Shown here: piece after piece, positions 3,849 through 49,764 of the stretch
How the letters are laid out: each line of letters begins with the position of its first letter
How positions within the stretch are numbered: the first letter of the stretch is position 1
Assembly: GCA_021730945.1 (NCBI GenBank)
Contig: JAKFYH010000013.1
Span: 1 to 64,000 of the forward strand
Reading direction: 5' to 3'
DNA from: Acidobacteriota bacterium
Lineage (GTDB): Bacteria; Acidobacteriota; Vicinamibacteria; Vicinamibacterales; UBA2999
DNA: 64,000 bases
Notes under the pieces: generated by a model
What the model was told of the DNA's origin: nothing
Databases searched by the model: none
The model's input: only the letters and a program-made list of their open reading frames with translations
Program-made: the position numbers and the translations under genes

Positions 3849-5248
3849 CGCTGCGCACCCGTCTGTTCGTGACCAGCGGCCTGGTGGCCACGCCCCTCGT
3901 GGTGGGATCGTATCTGCTCGATGAGCGGCTGCGGATGAGCGCCATGGAAGACGCACTGCGTTCAGCCGTGACCACCGAACTCGCCTTCGGACTCAGGGAG
4001 CGCTGCGAAAGCGGCGTCAGGCCGCCGCCCCCGCCGGGTCGCGGTCTCCCACCTCCCGGCGGACCGGCGGGTCGAGGCGGACCCCCGGGTGGCGGGCCGG
4101 GCCCGGGCGCCTACCGTCTTTCCACCTATTCCGCCGACGGAACGTCGCGGTTTGCCGACGCGCCGCCACTGCCGGCCGCGACCGTTTCCACATTCCGGAC
4201 CGGCCTTGAACGGGGTCTGCAATTGCGATTCGAGATCGGCGGCAGCGGCGACTGCGCGATCGGCCTGGCGCGCATGGCGCCGCGACCTGGACAACTGCGC
4301 GACCAACTGGCGGCGGTCGCCCTGGTCGGCTTGTCGGTGTTCGGCGGCATCTGGATCGCCGCCGGGTCGGTCATTACGAGAATGCGCCGCCTGACCGACC
4401 AGGTGCGACAGTCCGCCGCATCAAGCTATGCCGACCAGGTCCGCGTTGAACAGGACGACGAGGTGGCGGCGCTGGCGCGGGCGTTCAACGACGCTGGCGC
4501 GACGGTGCGCGCTCAGCTCACACAGATCCAGGCGCGTGAAGAGACACTACGGCACTTTGTCGCAAACACCACGCACGATGTGGCGATTCCGATGTCGGTG
4601 CTCCAGGGCCACCTGTCGAACCTGGATAGCGTGCTCGCCGCCGGCGGTGAACCTGGCGCGGCCGCGCGATCGCATCTGCACGACGCCGTCAAGGAGACGC
4701 ACTACATGGCGTCGCTGCTCAGAAATCTCGCCGTCGCCACCAAGCTTGGCGATGCCGGCGCGCCGCTCGCCGTGGGCCCGGTCGATCTCTCATCGCTGGT
4801 CGAGCGCGTCATCGGGCGCCACCGCCCCATCGCCCGCGCCACCGGTGTCGAACTCGACTACGCCGTGCCCGATGTGCCGCTGGTGGTGCCGACCGATGCC
4901 ACGCTGCTCGAGCAGGCGCTCAGCAATCTCGTCGACAACGCCGTGCGCTACAACACCGCCGGCGGCCACGTCGCCGTGGTCCTCGATCGCATCGCCGCGA
5001 GCGGCTTTGTGTTGTCGGTCACCGACGACGGGGTTGGCGTCAGCGATGAGGAACTCGCCCACTTGACCACGCGGTGGTTTCGCGGTTCCGAGGCACGGAC
5101 CCGGCGCCCCGACGGCAAGGGACTGGGACTGGCGATTGTGTCCGAGGCGTGCCAGCGACTGGGGCTGACCCTTACGTTCAGCCGGCCCGATGCCGGTGGA
5201 CTGTCGGCGGCCATGGCGAAGGCCACGCACGAGGCCGCCTCCTCCTAA
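3845..5248 (+). CDS. Sensor histidine kinase with Pro/Gly-rich periplasmic segment
   Basis: 4-bp overlap with the response regulator; HAMP-like region, FVANTTHDVAIPMSVLQGHL H-box, NLVDNAVRYN N-box, DGKGLGLAIV G-box; RPPPPPGRGLPPPGGPAGRGGPPGGGPGPGAYR in the sensor. Confidence 0.93.
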
Positions 5249-42818: not shown

Positions 42819-45701
42819 ATGAAGCGGTGGTTTAACGTTCTATGGGCCTTGGTGGCGACTCTCGCCCTGACGTCATCGGCGTGGGCGCAGGGCGGCGGCG
42901 CCAGTTCGACCGGCAGTATCAGCGGCGACGTCAAGGACGCGCAGGGCGGCGTGCTGCCCGGCGTCACGGTCACCGCGACCAGCCCGGCGCAGATCGGATC
43001 GCTCGTGGCGATCACCAACGAAGCGGGTCTCTACCGGTTCCCGGCGGTGCCGCCGGGCGAATATCGGCTGTCCTACGAACTGGCCGGTTTCCAGGCCAGT
43101 GTGCGCACCGGCATCAGGATCACGCTGGGCTTCAATGCCCAGGTCAACGTGAGTCTCAATGTGGCCACGCTGCAGGAAACGGTGACGGTGAGCGGCGAGT
43201 CGCCGGTAATCGACACCTCGGCCACCCGCATCCAGACCAACTACGACCAGCAGATGCTGTCGTCGATTCCCAATGCCCGCGACATGTGGTCGCTGCTGGC
43301 GACTACGCCGTCGGTCACGCTGAACCGGGTCGACGTCGGCGGGTCCACCGCCGGCACCCAGACCACCTACTTCGCCTATGGCTACTCGGGGCAGAACCGG
43401 CCGCTGATCGAGGGCATCAACACCACCGAAGGCACCTCGGCCGCCGGCTTCTACCTGGACTACGGGTCGTTCGAGGAAGTGTTCATCGGCGCCGCCGGCA
43501 ATTCGGCCGAGATGCCCAACTCCGGCGTGCTGACCCAGTTTGTCGGCAAGAGCGGCAGCAACTCGCCGTCGCTCAGCCTCTACTACGACTACGAGAACGA
43601 CACCTTCCAGGGCACCAACCTGGCGGCCGACCAGGTGACGCCCTCGCCTGGCGCCACTATCCGTCCCGACGGCAACCGGCTGGCCAGCTATCGCAACCTG
43701 AACCTCGGCCTCGGCGGGCCGATCGTCAAGGATCGGATGTGGGGACACTTCTCGTATTTGAACCAGGAAAATTCGGTGGCGGCGCCGCCGGCCGGGTCGT
43801 TCCTTGACGGCACGCCGTTCAACACCTCGCTGGTGAATTACACCGGCAAGGCGACCTACCAGGTGAACCAGGCCAACAAGATCATCGCCTACCTGCAGCA
43901 CGGCACCAAGGAACAGCCGACCCGCACCGACAGCAGCAACAAGCTCGGCGCGCCGGTGCACATCACCTCTGACTCCACTGTCTTCCAGGGCTCGCCGAGC
44001 TGGGTCTACAAGGGCGAATGGAACGGCACCATGGGCCAGAACACCTTCGTGGAAATCCGCGGCGGCCAGTTCGGCTACAACTTCGGCCTCGACAGCAACA
44101 CCCAGGCCACCCGTTACGAATCGATCACCACCAACGAAATCCTCGGTGGCGGACGCGATTGGGAGCTGCGGCGCCGGCGCAACCAGTTCACTGGCGCGCT
44201 CAGTTACTTCAAGGACAACCTCGCCGGCGGCTCGCACAACTTCAAGGCCGGCGGTGAGTACATGGACGAGAAGGGCCAAACGTTGTGGAACTCGTACTAC
44301 GCCGACAACGTCATCCACTTCGTCAACGGCAGCCTGCAGGGACCGTTGTCGGCGACCACCGCCAACTCCGTGCGCCTGACCAACAACGCCGACAGTTGGA
44401 GCGCGCTCGCCACCCTCAGCGCGTTTGTCACCGACACCTGGACCATCAACAAGCTGACCCTGAATCTGGGTGCGCGCTTCGATCGCTACCGCGTCTACAC
44501 CCCGGAGCAGCAGCTGCCGGCGGGGCGGTTCGTGCCCACGCCGCTGGCGTTTGCCGCGGTTGACAAGATCGTCGGCTTCAACCACATCGTCCCGCGCATC
44601 GGCGCGACCTACGACCTGATGGGCGATGGCAAGACCGTGCTCAAGGCGAACTGGGGCCGTTTCTACTTCAACCCCGGCATCGCGCTGGCCGACGCGGTCA
44701 ATCCCAATACCGCCAACCAGTACACCGACTACACGTGGAACGATCTCAACAACGATCGGATCTACCAGCCCGGCGAGGAAGGCGTGTTTCAGACCCGCTT
44801 CGGCGGCGTCGCCAACGCCTCAATCGACCCCAACCTGCGCAACTCGTATACCGATGAAGCCTCGGTGTTCGTCGAGCGCGCGGTGATCACCGACTTTGGC
44901 GTCCGCGCCGGGTTCGTGTGGAAGAAGGACAACGACGGCTGGCAGCAGGTGAACGCCAATCGTCCGATCAGCGCCTACAACATCCCGACCACGGTGTCCG
45001 ATCCGGGCCCCGACGGGGTGTTTGGCAACGGCGACGATGGCCCGGCCATTCCCGCCTTCAATCTGAGCAACACGACGCTGCCTTCGAACAACATCACGAC
45101 CAACGTCGACGGCTACGAGGGCAGCTTCAAGACGATCGAGTTCTCGGCCAACAAGCGCTACTCGAACCGCTGGTCGATGAACGCGTCGTTCTCGCACACC
45201 TGGACGTCGCAGTACGGCAACCTCTACTTCAACAACCGCTTCGGCACGGCGGTGTCCAACTTCTCGCTGTTTGGCAGCTATCCGACCAACCCGAACGAGA
45301 AGACCTTCAACGAGTACACCGACTGGAACGCGAAGCTCTCCGGAACGGTGGACGCCGGCTGGGGCATTCGCGTCACGCCGGTCGTCAAGGCGCAAAGCGG
45401 CGCGCCCTACGGCCGCTACTTCACCGCCCGCGCGGGCGAGTTGAACTACGGAACCCAGATCATCCTGGCCGAGCCGATCGGCACGCGCCGTCAGGATACG
45501 GTGATGGTGGTCGACTTCCGCGTCGAGAAGCAGGTGCGCTTCGCGCAGAAGGCCAAGGTCGGCTTGTTCTTCGACTTGTTCAACGCCATGAACTCCAACG
45601 TGGCCGTCAACGAGAACTGGCGCTCGGGCGCGGCGTTCGAGAAGGCGACGACGGTCCTCGGACCGCGGATCGCGAAGTTCGGCGTCAAGTTCGATTGGTA
45701 G
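42819..45701 (+). CDS. Oar-like TonB-dependent receptor (carboxypeptidase-regulatory domain)
   Basis: MKRWFNVLWALVATLALTSSAWAQGGGASSTGSISGDVKDAQGGVLPGVTVTATSPAQIG...PPGEYRLSYELAGFQ...; large beta-barrel C-terminus. Confidence 0.93.
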   Translation: MKRWFNVLWALVATLALTSSAWAQGGGASSTGSISGDVKDAQGGVLPGVTVTATSPAQIGSLVAITNEAGLYRFPAVPPGEYRLSYELAGFQASVRTGIRITLGFNAQVNVSLNVATLQETVTVSGESPVIDTSATRIQTNYDQQMLSSIPNARDMWSLLATTPSVTLNRVDVGGSTAGTQTTYFAYGYSGQNRPLIEGINTTEGTSAAGFYLDYGSFEEVFIGAAGNSAEMPNSGVLTQFVGKSGSNSPSLSLYYDYENDTFQGTNLAADQVTPSPGATIRPDGNRLASYRNLNLGLGGPIVKDRMWGHFSYLNQENSVAAPPAGSFLDGTPFNTSLVNYTGKATYQVNQANKIIAYLQHGTKEQPTRTDSSNKLGAPVHITSDSTVFQGSPSWVYKGEWNGTMGQNTFVEIRGGQFGYNFGLDSNTQATRYESITTNEILGGGRDWELRRRRNQFTGALSYFKDNLAGGSHNFKAGGEYMDEKGQTLWNSYYADNVIHFVNGSLQGPLSATTANSVRLTNNADSWSALATLSAFVTDTWTINKLTLNLGARFDRYRVYTPEQQLPAGRFVPTPLAFAAVDKIVGFNHIVPRIGATYDLMGDGKTVLKANWGRFYFNPGIALADAVNPNTANQYTDYTWNDLNNDRIYQPGEEGVFQTRFGGVANASIDPNLRNSYTDEASVFVERAVITDFGVRAGFVWKKDNDGWQQVNANRPISAYNIPTTVSDPGPDGVFGNGDDGPAIPAFNLSNTTLPSNNITTNVDGYEGSFKTIEFSANKRYSNRWSMNASFSHTWTSQYGNLYFNNRFGTAVSNFSLFGSYPTNPNEKTFNEYTDWNAKLSGTVDAGWGIRVTPVVKAQSGAPYGRYFTARAGELNYGTQIILAEPIGTRRQDTVMVVDFRVEKQVRFAQKAKVGLFFDLFNAMNSNVAVNENWRSGAAFEKATTVLGPRIAKFGVKFDW

Positions 45702-45717
45702 GGCCGCGCTTGCGGCG

Positions 45718-45900
45718 CGGTTGGGCTCGGCCGCTACGGGGCCCGGCGGGGTCGGCGCTTCGCGCCTCCTGAGGCTCGCTCACGCTCGTAGGGCTTCCGA
45801 TGGATCGCCATCGGGAGCCCTACCCTTGTACTCCTCTCACCCTACGAGCAGCGTAGTCGCGAGCCCCACAAGCGGCGTAGCCGCGAGCCCAGCCAAGGGC
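45718..45900. repeat. GGGCTCG-hairpin-CGTAG palindromic unit array (left of second Oar gene)
   Basis: ttgggctcggccgctacgggg, ggggtcggcgcttcgcgcctcctgagg, ctcgctcacgctcgtaggg ... ccctacgagcagcgtagtcgcgagccccacaagcggcgtagccgcgagccc. Confidence 0.8.
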
Positions 45901-46050
45901 CCCCTCGAGTTCCTCCGTTTAAATTGAACAAGCATTCAGGGCGTTGGAGTTCCGGCGAACAATATTTTGAATTTGGGGGGTCGCCGTCTTCGATGGCTGG
46001 ATTTCACACCAAATTGGGCCCGAACTCACCCCTGCCCTCGACCCGGCTGG

Positions 46051-46066
46051 TGGCACAGATGCTGCT
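46051..46066 (+). promoter_or_regulatory. Candidate sigma-54-type -24/-12 promoter
   Basis: TGGCACagatgCTGCT; GG-to-GC spacing matches consensus; 107 bp upstream of the second Oar-like receptor ATG. Confidence 0.4.
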
Positions 46067-46172
46067 ATCTGGGGCGTAGACCTGCTTGGTCGGGCCGAAC
46101 TGCCGATAGAACGGGACGGCTTTGAAGTGTATGAATTCGCCGGGATCCCCGGCGTTTGTGGAGGATGGGAAT

Positions 46173-49133
46173 ATGACGTTTAGAAACGCGCTCGTCGCGT
46201 CGGCACTGGTGCTCTTGGTGGGCACGTCGGCCGTGGCGCAGCAGCAGACCGGTGAAATCTACGGCAGGGCCACCGATAAGTCCGGTGCCGTACTGCCGGG
46301 AACCACGGTCACCGTGGCCGGCCCGGCGCTGATTCAGCCGCGCGTGTCGGTCACGTCGGAAACCGGCAGCTACCGCGCCCCCGAGCTGCCGATTGGCACC
46401 TATTCGGTGACGTTCGAACTGCCTGGCTTCCGCACCATGGTCATGCAGGACATCCGCGTCACCATCGGCTTCCGCGCCCAGGTCAACAGCTCGCTCGAGC
46501 TGTCGTCGGTGCAGGAAACCGTGACCGTGACCGGCGAAAGCCCGATCGTCGACACCCGCGAGACGGGCACGTCGACGACGTTCAACCTCGAGACGATGCG
46601 CGACATCCCCTCGGCCCGCGACCCCTGGGTCATGCTCGAGCGGACGCCCGGCATCACCATGGACCGCGCCAATGTCGGCGGCAACCAGTCGGGCCAGCAG
46701 TCAGGCTACATCTCGCGTGGCTCGAGCACGGGCAACAACAAGTGGTCGATTGACGGCGTCGACATCACCGACATGTCGGCCACCGGCGCCTCGCCCATCT
46801 ACTACGACTTCGACATGCTGCAGGAAATGCAGGTCTCGACGGGCGGCGCCGACGTCACCCAGCAGACGGGCGGTGTCGGCATCAACCTGGTGACCAAGAG
46901 CGGCACCGACAGCTTCAAGGGTTCGGGCCGTTACCTGCTGACGGACGAGAAGTTCGTGGCCGACAACATCACCACGGAACTGAAGGCCCAGGGCGCCGGC
47001 GCCGGCGCGCCGATCCAGAACATCAAGGACTACGGCTTCGACATCGGCGGCCCGATCGTCAAGGGCAAGATGTGGTACTGGGGCAGCTACGGCACGCAGG
47101 ACATCAACGTCGGCGTGGTGGGCTTCTACAAGAACACGGCGGAATGCCGTCCCGGTGGCGTCGCGATCAACCCGCGCACGGCCGAAACCGACCTGCTGCG
47201 CAGCTGCCTGTCGAGCGACACCACGACGCTCAACAACTACAACTGGAAGCTGACCTACGTGCCGTTCACCAACAACCGGCTGAACTTCCAGAACACCTGG
47301 GCGGAAAAGGTTCGTAACGCGCGCGACGCCGGCGACACCCGCCCGATCGAAACCACCTACCGGCAGAAGGCCGTGTCGAGCGACTTCGGCAAGTTCGGCT
47401 GGATCACCGGCCCGTCGCCGTTCTGGAAACTGGGCGACCAGCACGTGATCAGCGACCGCTGGCTGCTCGACGTGCAGGTCTCGCACCTCGGCAACAACTT
47501 CGTGCTCGACTTCCACGAAGACGAACTGCGCGACGTGCAGGCCCGCCTGGAGACCACCACCGGCGTGTGGGGCCGTTCCTTCCAGGCCTCCACCTTCATG
47601 CGTCCGACCAACAGCCTGGACGTGACCACCAGCTACTTCCTGCCCAACAGCCTGGGCGGCGACCACGCGTTCAAGGCCGGCTATCGTCTGCGCACGGCGC
47701 ACTCGACCAGCATCAACCATCACGGCGGCTACATCGACGCGCGCTTCACCAACGGCGTGGCCAACTCGGCCGACATCTGGCGCGACCAGTACTCCGAATC
47801 GCACCTGAGCACGCAGGCGTTCTACGCCTCCGACACGTTCACCAAGAACAAGCTCACGATCAACCTCGGCTTCCGCCTGGACGTCCAGGACGACGAAGCG
47901 GTGGCGGGCGTGGTGCCGGCCAACCCGGTGTTCCCGACGCTGATGCCGTCGGTGGACTTCAAGGGCGCCGATGCCGGCGTGGTGTGGAAGGACTTCTCGC
48001 CGCGCGTGGGCTTCACCTACGACCTGACCGGCAACGGCCGCAACGTGCTGTCGTCGTCGTATGCGACCTACTACGGCCAGATGGCCCCGGGCCAGTTGTC
48101 GAGCGTGCTCGCGGCCACCGGCGCGGTGTTTGTCCGCTATCCCTGGACCGACACCAACGGCGACCAGTTCGTGCAGGCCAGCGAGGTCAACACGGCGGTG
48201 GCGTTCCTCAGCAAGAGCGGCGCCTATGACCCGGCCAACCCGACCAGCACCTCCTCGCCCAACCGGGTGGACCCCAACGTCAAGAACGACCGGACGCGCG
48301 AGTTCATCGTCGGCTTCGACCGCCAGCTCGCCTCGCAGATGGCGATTGGCGGCAGTTACATCTGGCGCAAGTACGATCAGTTCGCCTGGACCGATCGCGA
48401 CAACTTCACCAGCGCCAACTACGTGCCGGTGACCTACCAGGCCACCACCTGCCCGGCCGGCGCGCGTTGCGAAGCGGTGACCTACTACCAGCCGAACATC
48501 CAGATTCCGTCGCCGGGCGTGTATACCAACCAGCCCGACCGGTATCGCGACTTCAACGGCTTCGAGCTGACCTTCCAGAAGCGCACGTCGAACAACTGGT
48601 CGATGAACGCCAGCTACGCCTACAACAACGCCATCGATCGCTGGGATTCGCCCAACGCCTACGAGGACCCGACCAACATCGACAAGTTGAACGGCTTCCA
48701 GTACGCGCCCGAATCAGCCGGCAGCGGCATCGGCGGCATCTTCACCAACGCCAAGTGGCTGTTCAAGGTCAACGGCCGCTACACCATGCCCTGGGACATC
48801 AACCTCGCCGCCAACTACCAGGCGCGGCAGGGCTATCCCTACCTGCAGACCATCCTGTCGCCCAACCGCGCCAACGGCGCCGGCACGGTGCAGGTGCAGC
48901 TCGACCCGCTCGGCGACCTGCGGCTGGACAACCTCCACACGGTGGACGCGCGGATCGACAAGACCTTCCGCTTCCGCGCCGTCACCCTGGTGCCGGCGTT
49001 TGACGTGTTCAACCTGACCAACGCCAACACGGTGCAGGCGGTGAACCGCAACCAGGCCGCGTCCAACGCGAACCAGATCAGCGGCATTCTCGCGCCGCGC
49101 GTCATGCGTTTCGGCGTCAACGTTCGCTGGTAG
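46173..49133 (+). CDS. Oar-like TonB-dependent receptor (carboxypeptidase-regulatory domain)
   Basis: MTFRNALVASALVLLVGTSAVAQQQTGEIYGRATDKSGAVLPGTTVTVAGPALIQPRVSVTSETGSYRAPELPIGTYSVTFELPGF. Confidence 0.93.
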   Translation: MTFRNALVASALVLLVGTSAVAQQQTGEIYGRATDKSGAVLPGTTVTVAGPALIQPRVSVTSETGSYRAPELPIGTYSVTFELPGFRTMVMQDIRVTIGFRAQVNSSLELSSVQETVTVTGESPIVDTRETGTSTTFNLETMRDIPSARDPWVMLERTPGITMDRANVGGNQSGQQSGYISRGSSTGNNKWSIDGVDITDMSATGASPIYYDFDMLQEMQVSTGGADVTQQTGGVGINLVTKSGTDSFKGSGRYLLTDEKFVADNITTELKAQGAGAGAPIQNIKDYGFDIGGPIVKGKMWYWGSYGTQDINVGVVGFYKNTAECRPGGVAINPRTAETDLLRSCLSSDTTTLNNYNWKLTYVPFTNNRLNFQNTWAEKVRNARDAGDTRPIETTYRQKAVSSDFGKFGWITGPSPFWKLGDQHVISDRWLLDVQVSHLGNNFVLDFHEDELRDVQARLETTTGVWGRSFQASTFMRPTNSLDVTTSYFLPNSLGGDHAFKAGYRLRTAHSTSINHHGGYIDARFTNGVANSADIWRDQYSESHLSTQAFYASDTFTKNKLTINLGFRLDVQDDEAVAGVVPANPVFPTLMPSVDFKGADAGVVWKDFSPRVGFTYDLTGNGRNVLSSSYATYYGQMAPGQLSSVLAATGAVFVRYPWTDTNGDQFVQASEVNTAVAFLSKSGAYDPANPTSTSSPNRVDPNVKNDRTREFIVGFDRQLASQMAIGGSYIWRKYDQFAWTDRDNFTSANYVPVTYQATTCPAGARCEAVTYYQPNIQIPSPGVYTNQPDRYRDFNGFELTFQKRTSNNWSMNASYAYNNAIDRWDSPNAYEDPTNIDKLNGFQYAPESAGSGIGGIFTNAKWLFKVNGRYTMPWDINLAANYQARQGYPYLQTILSPNRANGAGTVQVQLDPLGDLRLDNLHTVDARIDKTFRFRAVTLVPAFDVFNLTNANTVQAVNRNQAASNANQISGILAPRVMRFGVNVRW

Positions 49134-49154
49134 CAGCGGCGGCGTAACAACCCC

Positions 49155-49193
49155 AAAGGCCGGTGGGAGCGATCCCGCCGGCCTTTTCTTTTT
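49155..49193 (+). terminator. Rho-independent terminator after second Oar-like gene
   Basis: aaaggccggtgggagcgatcccgccggccttttcttttt: GC stem followed by T-tract. Confidence 0.88.
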
Positions 49194-49195
49194 GT

Positions 49196-49425
49196 ACGGC
49201 CGCTGCGCGAGGGGCTCGGCGCTCACGCGCCTCGTAGGGCTCGGCGCTCACGCGCCTCGTAGGGCTCGGCGCTCACGCGCCTCGTAGGGCTCGGCGCTGC
49301 GCGCCTTCGTGGGGGTCGGCCTTCGGCCCTCCTGGGGATTGCGTCCCATGCCAGGCCAGCAAGCCCCCACGAGCGAAGCGAGCCCCACAAGAGCCGCAGG
49401 CGCGAGCCCTCCCGCCCTACTTCAG
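49196..49425. repeat. GGGCTCG-hairpin-CTCGTA unit array with inverted right half
   Basis: Three near-identical 25-bp units gggctcggcgctcacgcgcctcgta, then gggctcggcgctgcgcgccttcgtg, ggggtcggccttcggccctcctgggg; inverted units ccccacgagcgaagcgag and ccccacaagagccgcaggcgcgag. Confidence 0.92.
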
Positions 49426-49764
49426 CCCGTCAAGCCAGCCGGCGATCTGTTCGCGCGACCAGCGGTGTTGGTCGTTCAGGTGTACGAGGATGGCGGCCAG
49501 GCTGAGGGTCTTCGTGCAGCCGTCGCCGCCGGGGCAGCGGCGGACCGAGCCCTCGAGGCAGTCGAAGAACCATTCAAGGTCCTTGGTCGGGCGCTGGCCC
49601 GCGGCATCGGCCGGCAGCCGGTACATGCCCTCGTAGGCGGCGCCCAGGGCGCAGGACGCATTCTTGCCGCGATAGTAGTCGCCGTAGGCCTGGTCAGGCC
49701 GGCGCTCGGCGCCGGCCCGGATGAAAGCCGCCAGTTCCTTCTCACCGTGGTGTCCGTCTGCCAA
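49417..49764 (-). CDS. Hypothetical protein
   Basis: MADGHHGEKELAAFIRAGAERRPDQAYGDYYRGKNASCALGAAYEGMYRLP...; coherent soluble ORF. Confidence 0.6.
   Translation of the reverse strand: MADGHHGEKELAAFIRAGAERRPDQAYGDYYRGKNASCALGAAYEGMYRLPADAAGQRPTKDLEWFFDCLEGSVRRCPGGDGCTKTLSLAAILVHLNDQHRWSREQIAGWLDGLK

Follow-up and report, generated by a model that had tools for sequence, protein, structure and literature searches.

Two repeat arrays, at 45702–45889 and 49212–49408 of the DNA analyzed here, flank an Oar-like receptor gene on both sides. Their units keep a constant frame around a small palindrome that differs from unit to unit, and the question is what process preserves the one while varying the other. 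The window, meaning the whole 64,000-nucleotide stretch under analysis, consists of bases 1–64000 of contig C1 in an Acidobacteriota draft genome (G000; 4.73 Mb, 67 contigs). A first-pass annotation had reported three identical 25-bp copies and an inverted half on each side of the gene. Both were found: the copies start at 49212, 49237, and 49262 on the forward strand, and reverse-strand units are located at 45841 and 45865 and at 49366 and 49384. Further forward units lie to the right (49288 and 49313) and to the left (45749 and 45773) of the gene (Table 1). When folded as single-stranded DNA, both arrays were more stable than their own shuffles (z = -4.1 and -2.1). The terminator-like hairpin at 49157–49195 varies in its stem letters across species while keeping the pairing.

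Table 1. Features of the two arrays and their surroundings (positions in the window)
Feature	Position	Strand
Stop codon (TAG) that ends the first Oar-like gene; left array immediately 3'	45699..45701	+
First-type hairpin GGCCGCGC-TTGC-GGCGCGG, directly adjoining the TAG and lacking the TC/TC mismatch	45702..45722	+
End-type unit GGGTCG-GCGCTTCGCGC-CTCCTGAG	45749..45773	+
Short unit GGCTCG-CTCACG-CTCGTAGG	45773..45792	+
Center separating the + and - arms; hairpin around CCGATGG-ATCG-CCATCGG	45793..45840	.
Unit GGCTCG-CGACTACGCTG-CTCGTAGG, stem partly decayed	45841..45865	-
Unit GGCTCG-CGGCTACGCCG-CTTGTGGG	45865..45889	-
Oar-like TonB-dependent receptor (CarboxypepD_reg, Plug, and OMP_b-brl_4, a beta-barrel)	46173..49133	+
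Intrinsic-terminator-like hairpin of the receptor gene with T run, also in sister species; array beyond it	49157..49195	+
Three identical units GGGCTCG-GCGCTCACGCGC-CTCGTAG	49212..49288	+
Unit GGCTCG-GCGCTGCGCGC-CTTCGTGGG	49288..49313	+
End-type unit GGGTCG-GCCTTCGGCC-CTCCTGGG	49313..49336	+
Minimal unit GGCTCG-CTTCG-CTCGTGGG	49366..49384	-
Unit GGCTCG-CGCCTGCGGCT-CTTGTGGG	49384..49408	-
TAG stop of the convergent gene (49417-49764), then GGCGGGAGGGCTCG on the strand of that gene	49417..49419	-

Units with a Constant Frame Recur across the Genome

We found units of the form GGSTCG-hairpin-CTCGTRGG at about 30 intergenic places in the draft genome. The copies outside the flagged locus that the first-pass annotation had anticipated thus exist, far from that locus, and its link to a surface receptor is not supported: the arrays stand behind other genes at about 30 places, the receptor gene being an incidental neighbor. 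The strictest pattern, GGGCTCGN{2,20}CTCGTAGGG, had 21 matches in the 4.73-Mb genome versus 0 for the reversed-pattern control, and allowing R in the tag (GGGCTCGN{5,14}CTCGTRGGG) gave 53 versus 1. The looser GGSTCGN{2,16}CTCSTRGG gave 79 versus 16 and thus takes in some chance matches. The frame originally described, GGGCTCG...CTCGTAG, stands above chance as a constant frame, but its tag needs amending to CTCGTRGG. Among exact-frame units of the species studied, the R position is G in 90 and A in 50, the GTGG foot being commoner than GTAG, and some units end in CTTGT or CTCCT. When hairpins were chosen without using the tag, the consensus upstream of them was CTCGTRGGGC, giving the unpaired GTRG end characteristic of REPs. 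Pattern searches together with about 60 stretches around arrays, on which our genome totals are based, yielded 118 units in clusters of this genome; they are mostly 18–27 bp long and mostly intergenic, as expected of a short repeated extragenic palindrome (20–40 bp).

In a survey of 396 phylum genomes and 162 order genomes, only one genus had an excess of the exact family. Within it, the family is found in G000, G005, and G006; it is weak in G007, G003 has one copy, and G001 carries a GGACTCG variant. A short array with two or three units built in the same way was seen in a Candidatus Sulfopaludibacter metagenome-assembled genome, which belongs to another genus of Acidobacteriota (L157, 3700–3900). 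Rfam gave no match at the gathering score for five other array loci and only subthreshold matches for the window.

The Frame Is Part of a Covarying Hairpin

For inserts picked by the frame alone, 78% of cells pair, compared with 35% when the letters are shuffled inside each insert. We computed covariation from 33 distinct gap-free 25-mers with the structure ..(..(((((...)))))..).... and found 96.5% of the stem cells paired (70.9 after shuffling), 42 double changes (16.4), and a covariation of 0.543 (0.151, SD 0.029). The changes in the hairpin are thus compensatory, as the test of covariation suggested in the first-pass annotation had foreseen. The signal was destroyed when the 3' side was shifted by one to three columns. 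Perfect hairpins were found in 86 of 116 inserts within the genus and in 0 of 43 inserts of chance frames in other Acidobacteriota.

The three inner stem pairs flip between G–C and C–G. The outer pair 3–21, which lies within the supposedly constant frame, turns to G–C in end-type units (GGGTCG..CTCCT); this flip may be a single event and the end-type units one subtype. Between the outer pair and the inner stem lies a fixed TC/TC mismatch, two positions on each side being unpaired. The frame, holding the outer pair and the fixed mismatch, belongs to the hairpin. In four species, we counted 203 hairpins, of which 142 were distinct; their stems use all eight G/C triplets, and a few contain A–T pairs. 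The loop is CTNCG-like and pyrimidine-rich on the unit strand in nearly all units. One-sided stem mismatches comprised four G.T and four A.C-type cases, without a G.T excess in these small numbers. Hairpin-templated mutation is one possible source of the compensated stem changes.

Arrays Combine Different Units and Turn Over Quickly

The units are arranged head to tail, with one to seven per arm. Identical hairpins were adjacent in 12 of 150 cases, an enrichment over the 1.2% of random pairs, and nonidentical neighbors shared their stem triplet as often as random units did (19.1% versus 19.4%). As neighboring hairpins usually differ, slippage is a minority process, in agreement with the initial judgment that the layout is hard to explain by slippage alone. 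End-type units were last in 26 arms, while 15.4 were expected (P = 0.0006). Arrays with both orientations always run from forward to reverse units, in 11 of 11 cases in this genome and 16 of 16 in sister species, with the tags pointing outward as in REP dimers. We considered an inverted duplication of whole arrays and rejected it, the hairpins of the two arms not being mirror images.

Comparison with sister species revealed sites with and without arrays. At C51:29655, four sisters read TAG|GTCTCG, the stop running straight into the end of the next gene, whereas this genome has TAG|GGGTCG...143 bp...TAG|GTCTCG, in which 143 bp separate two TAGs. The second site is C6:18577, where the TAG is followed immediately by the next start in G004 and G008, by a single 22-bp unit ending in TAG in this genome, and by several units in G005, which occupy this same position and carry different hairpins. 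Further array sites are empty in several sisters, and the site orthologous to the left window array in G006 has the same TAG followed by a hairpin different from that at 45702–45722. Both window arrays are exact gaps in the alignment with G005. In other species, other palindromic repeats occupy this position behind the receptor; the arrays therefore turn over quickly. This presence/absence comparison of sequences suggests that the units are mobile.

Other sequences at these sites deserve mention. Behind the orthologous receptor in G002 (L141, about 4150–4310) lies an inverted tandem repeat of another kind, its units resembling TTGACGGGATCGCACTTC, and stretches similar to it (CTCCCGTC..) occur within the 143-bp insert (L067). 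Between the receptor and the next gene, a conserved noncoding stretch, ATCCACGCG..AGTGGAGG..ACATCTTCACCAGCCCGACGG..AAGCGTGGCC (L137, L138, and L143), is found in G005, G007, and partly G003, and is absent here; it has no Rfam match and could be a candidate structured RNA of a novel type.

Many Arrays Abut a Stop Codon, Often TAG

Clusters were located between 11 convergent, 13 tandem, and 2 divergent gene pairs, and 7 more overlap a predicted ORF; these counts are approximate, the gene finder being a simple GC3-based script. Many clusters lie 0–50 bp from a stop, and this location at 3' ends and rarely between divergent genes is that of REPs. In this genome, TAG was used by 20 of the 28 stops facing arrays and by 47 of 114 background stops (P = 0.006); for TAG with GG after it (TAG+GG), the counts were 12 of 28 and 6 of 114 (P = 3e-6), in line with REPs whose tag supplies the TAG. 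In three sister species, TAG+GG was enriched more weakly (6 of 27 versus 3 of 71, P = 0.012), and TAG alone was not significantly enriched (13 of 27 versus 27 of 71, P = 0.37). In the G002 ortholog of C19:35784 (L237), three different hairpins directly behind a TAG stop form the series TAG-hairpin-TAG-hairpin-TAG-hairpin-TAG.

A Resident RAYT Has Hairpins of Its Own

Among the five Y1_Tnp genes of this genome, one RAYT scored above the curated NCBIfam cutoff (117.8 bits; C10:45453-45839). Arrays of a hairpin of its own, AGCGACGGC-TTTA-GCCGTCGCT, with a conserved, perfect stem, lie to either side of this gene, and the region (C10:44800-46230, L194) has the layout of a canonical REPtron, a RAYT with inverted arrays of AGCGACGGC-TTTA/TTCA-GCCGTCGCT. 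Dozens of copies of the AGCGACGGC hairpin are present genome-wide, and the same RAYT arrangement is found in G001, G005, G007, and G008. This REPtron shares with our units the inverted tandem hairpin arrays, the genome, and the genus; it differs in its conserved perfect stem, in having hairpins that flank the RAYT, and in sequence and tag.

None of the RAYT genes examined was clearly flanked by variable-stem units, the exception being one nearby degenerate unit in G007. We rejected the RAYT as a flanking partner, as its flanks hold other hairpins. Each of the nine genomes of the genus has Y1_Tnp genes, and their distribution does not follow that of the repeat, G008 having 13 of them and no excess of units. 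A RAYT above the cutoff is found in G000, G001, and G005–G008 and not in G002–G004; we gave this suggestive link little weight, the main ortholog having its own hairpin. With phmmer, no relative of solved structure was retrieved for one Y1 protein at E 0.001.

Discussion

The testable structural hallmarks of GTAG-type REPs are present in these arrays. We consider it probable that the units form a new family of this type, specific to one Acidobacteriota genus and with a stem that its recognizer does not read. With the GTAG REP superfamily (PMC3733652) they share the unpaired GTRG end, the opposite-orientation pairs with tags outside, the location behind genes, the tag that often forms a TAG stop, and complementary stem changes. 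Indeed, the ends of GTAG REPs often provide the TAG stop of flanking ORFs, dimers with GTAG outside predominate in most families, stem variation involves complementary residues, and GTGG variants are known (PMC3733652). The units here differ in a far more variable stem within one genome, long head-to-tail arrays, a conserved TC/TC mismatch, distinct end units, a majority GTGG tag, and the lack of a flanking RAYT. Several observations speak against the assignment: head-to-tail arrays, common here, are rare in the described GTAG families (PMC3733652), GTGG feet outnumber GTAG, no examined RAYT gene is clearly flanked by the units, and the enrichment of TAG as such did not recur in three sister species. 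In the main text of Di Nocera et al. 2013 (PMC3733652), Acidobacteria are mentioned solely in connection with transposases flanked by other terminal repeats.

The REP/BIME elements of Escherichia coli with their group-2 TnpAREP (PMC8266576) share the GTAG foot and the unpaired bases interrupting the stem. That enzyme requires GTAG and an unpaired bulge, and a REP with its upper stem swapped was still bound and cleaved (PMC8266576). E. coli REPs are unlike our units in that they are longer, are grouped in three defined types, keep some positions of the stem conserved, and have a known cognate transposase. The E. coli TnpAREP does not read the upper stem and loop, and we propose that the same may hold here; a TnpAREP needing the foot and the bulge and not the upper stem would explain a constant frame around a free stem. 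Each unit is a short hairpin with the GTRG foot at its 5' side, a tiny lower stem of C–G and then G–C split by the TC/TC mismatch, and an upper stem of any sequence that pairs, closed by the CTNCG-like loop. A single-strand HUH (Y1) transposase of the RAYT/TnpAREP type, acting in trans, would read the foot and the mismatch and ignore the upper stem. New units would join behind an existing TAG/GTRG, each bringing a new tag, and the growth of arrays would be chiefly a serial addition of different units, with slippage contributing only sometimes. Changes on both sides of the stem could come from copying out of a varied pool or from template-switch correction of a quasi-palindrome. We advance the full scheme only tentatively, as one possibility that we rate well below the family assignment: a mobile hairpin with a stem constrained by pairing alone, an enzyme reading foot, mismatch, and loop, serial addition behind a TAG that is often the stop of a gene, and ever-different palindromes drawn from a varied pool or made anew at each insertion.

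A nontransposable origin, in which slippage or unequal exchange enlarges the arrays and the hairpins later diversify as template-switch (quasi-palindrome) replication repair copies a change from one arm into the other, is unlikely, though not implausible. The excess of identical neighbors indicates that tandem duplication occurs, the lack of a G.T excess is what a DNA-level process predicts, and template switching is known to yield compensated multibase changes (PMC8794818). On the other hand, nonidentical neighbors resemble each other no more than random units, and loop inversion, a signature of template switching (PMC8794818), was not observed in the units. The empty sites, the abutment to stop codons, and the fixed end units would also be left unexplained.

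It is rather improbable that the arrays are RNA-level 3'-UTR hairpins, selected to halt ribosomes or exonucleases or to end transcription and shaped by ordinary compensatory evolution of RNA stems. Their position directly behind stops and between convergent genes would suit such a role, and in E. coli, ribosome stalling has been reported for REPs that closely follow a stop codon (PMC12306157). However, the few stem mismatches show no G–U preference, the array at 49212 lies beyond the receptor gene's own terminator, sister genes lack the array entirely, and there is no Rfam match; RNA-level use may be secondary. Finally, while inverted arms do flank the receptor gene on both sides, the recombination or inversion substrate first proposed, here as a phase-variation switch for that gene, is highly improbable, given the arrays at about 30 other places, an arm order never reversed in 27 of 27 mixed arrays, a single loop strand in nearly all units, and a receptor orientation relative to its neighbors that is the same in the sister G005. 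In the assemblies compared, the segment occurs in one orientation.

The reading as REPs, which we favor, extends the GTAG type to an Acidobacteriota genus. The spread of REPs and their recognition by enzymes are still poorly understood, and an element with foot, mismatch, and loop fixed, the upper stem randomized, and empty and filled sites in sister species amounts to a natural in vivo selection experiment. It is also well suited to weighing selection against template switching as the origin of compensated stem changes.
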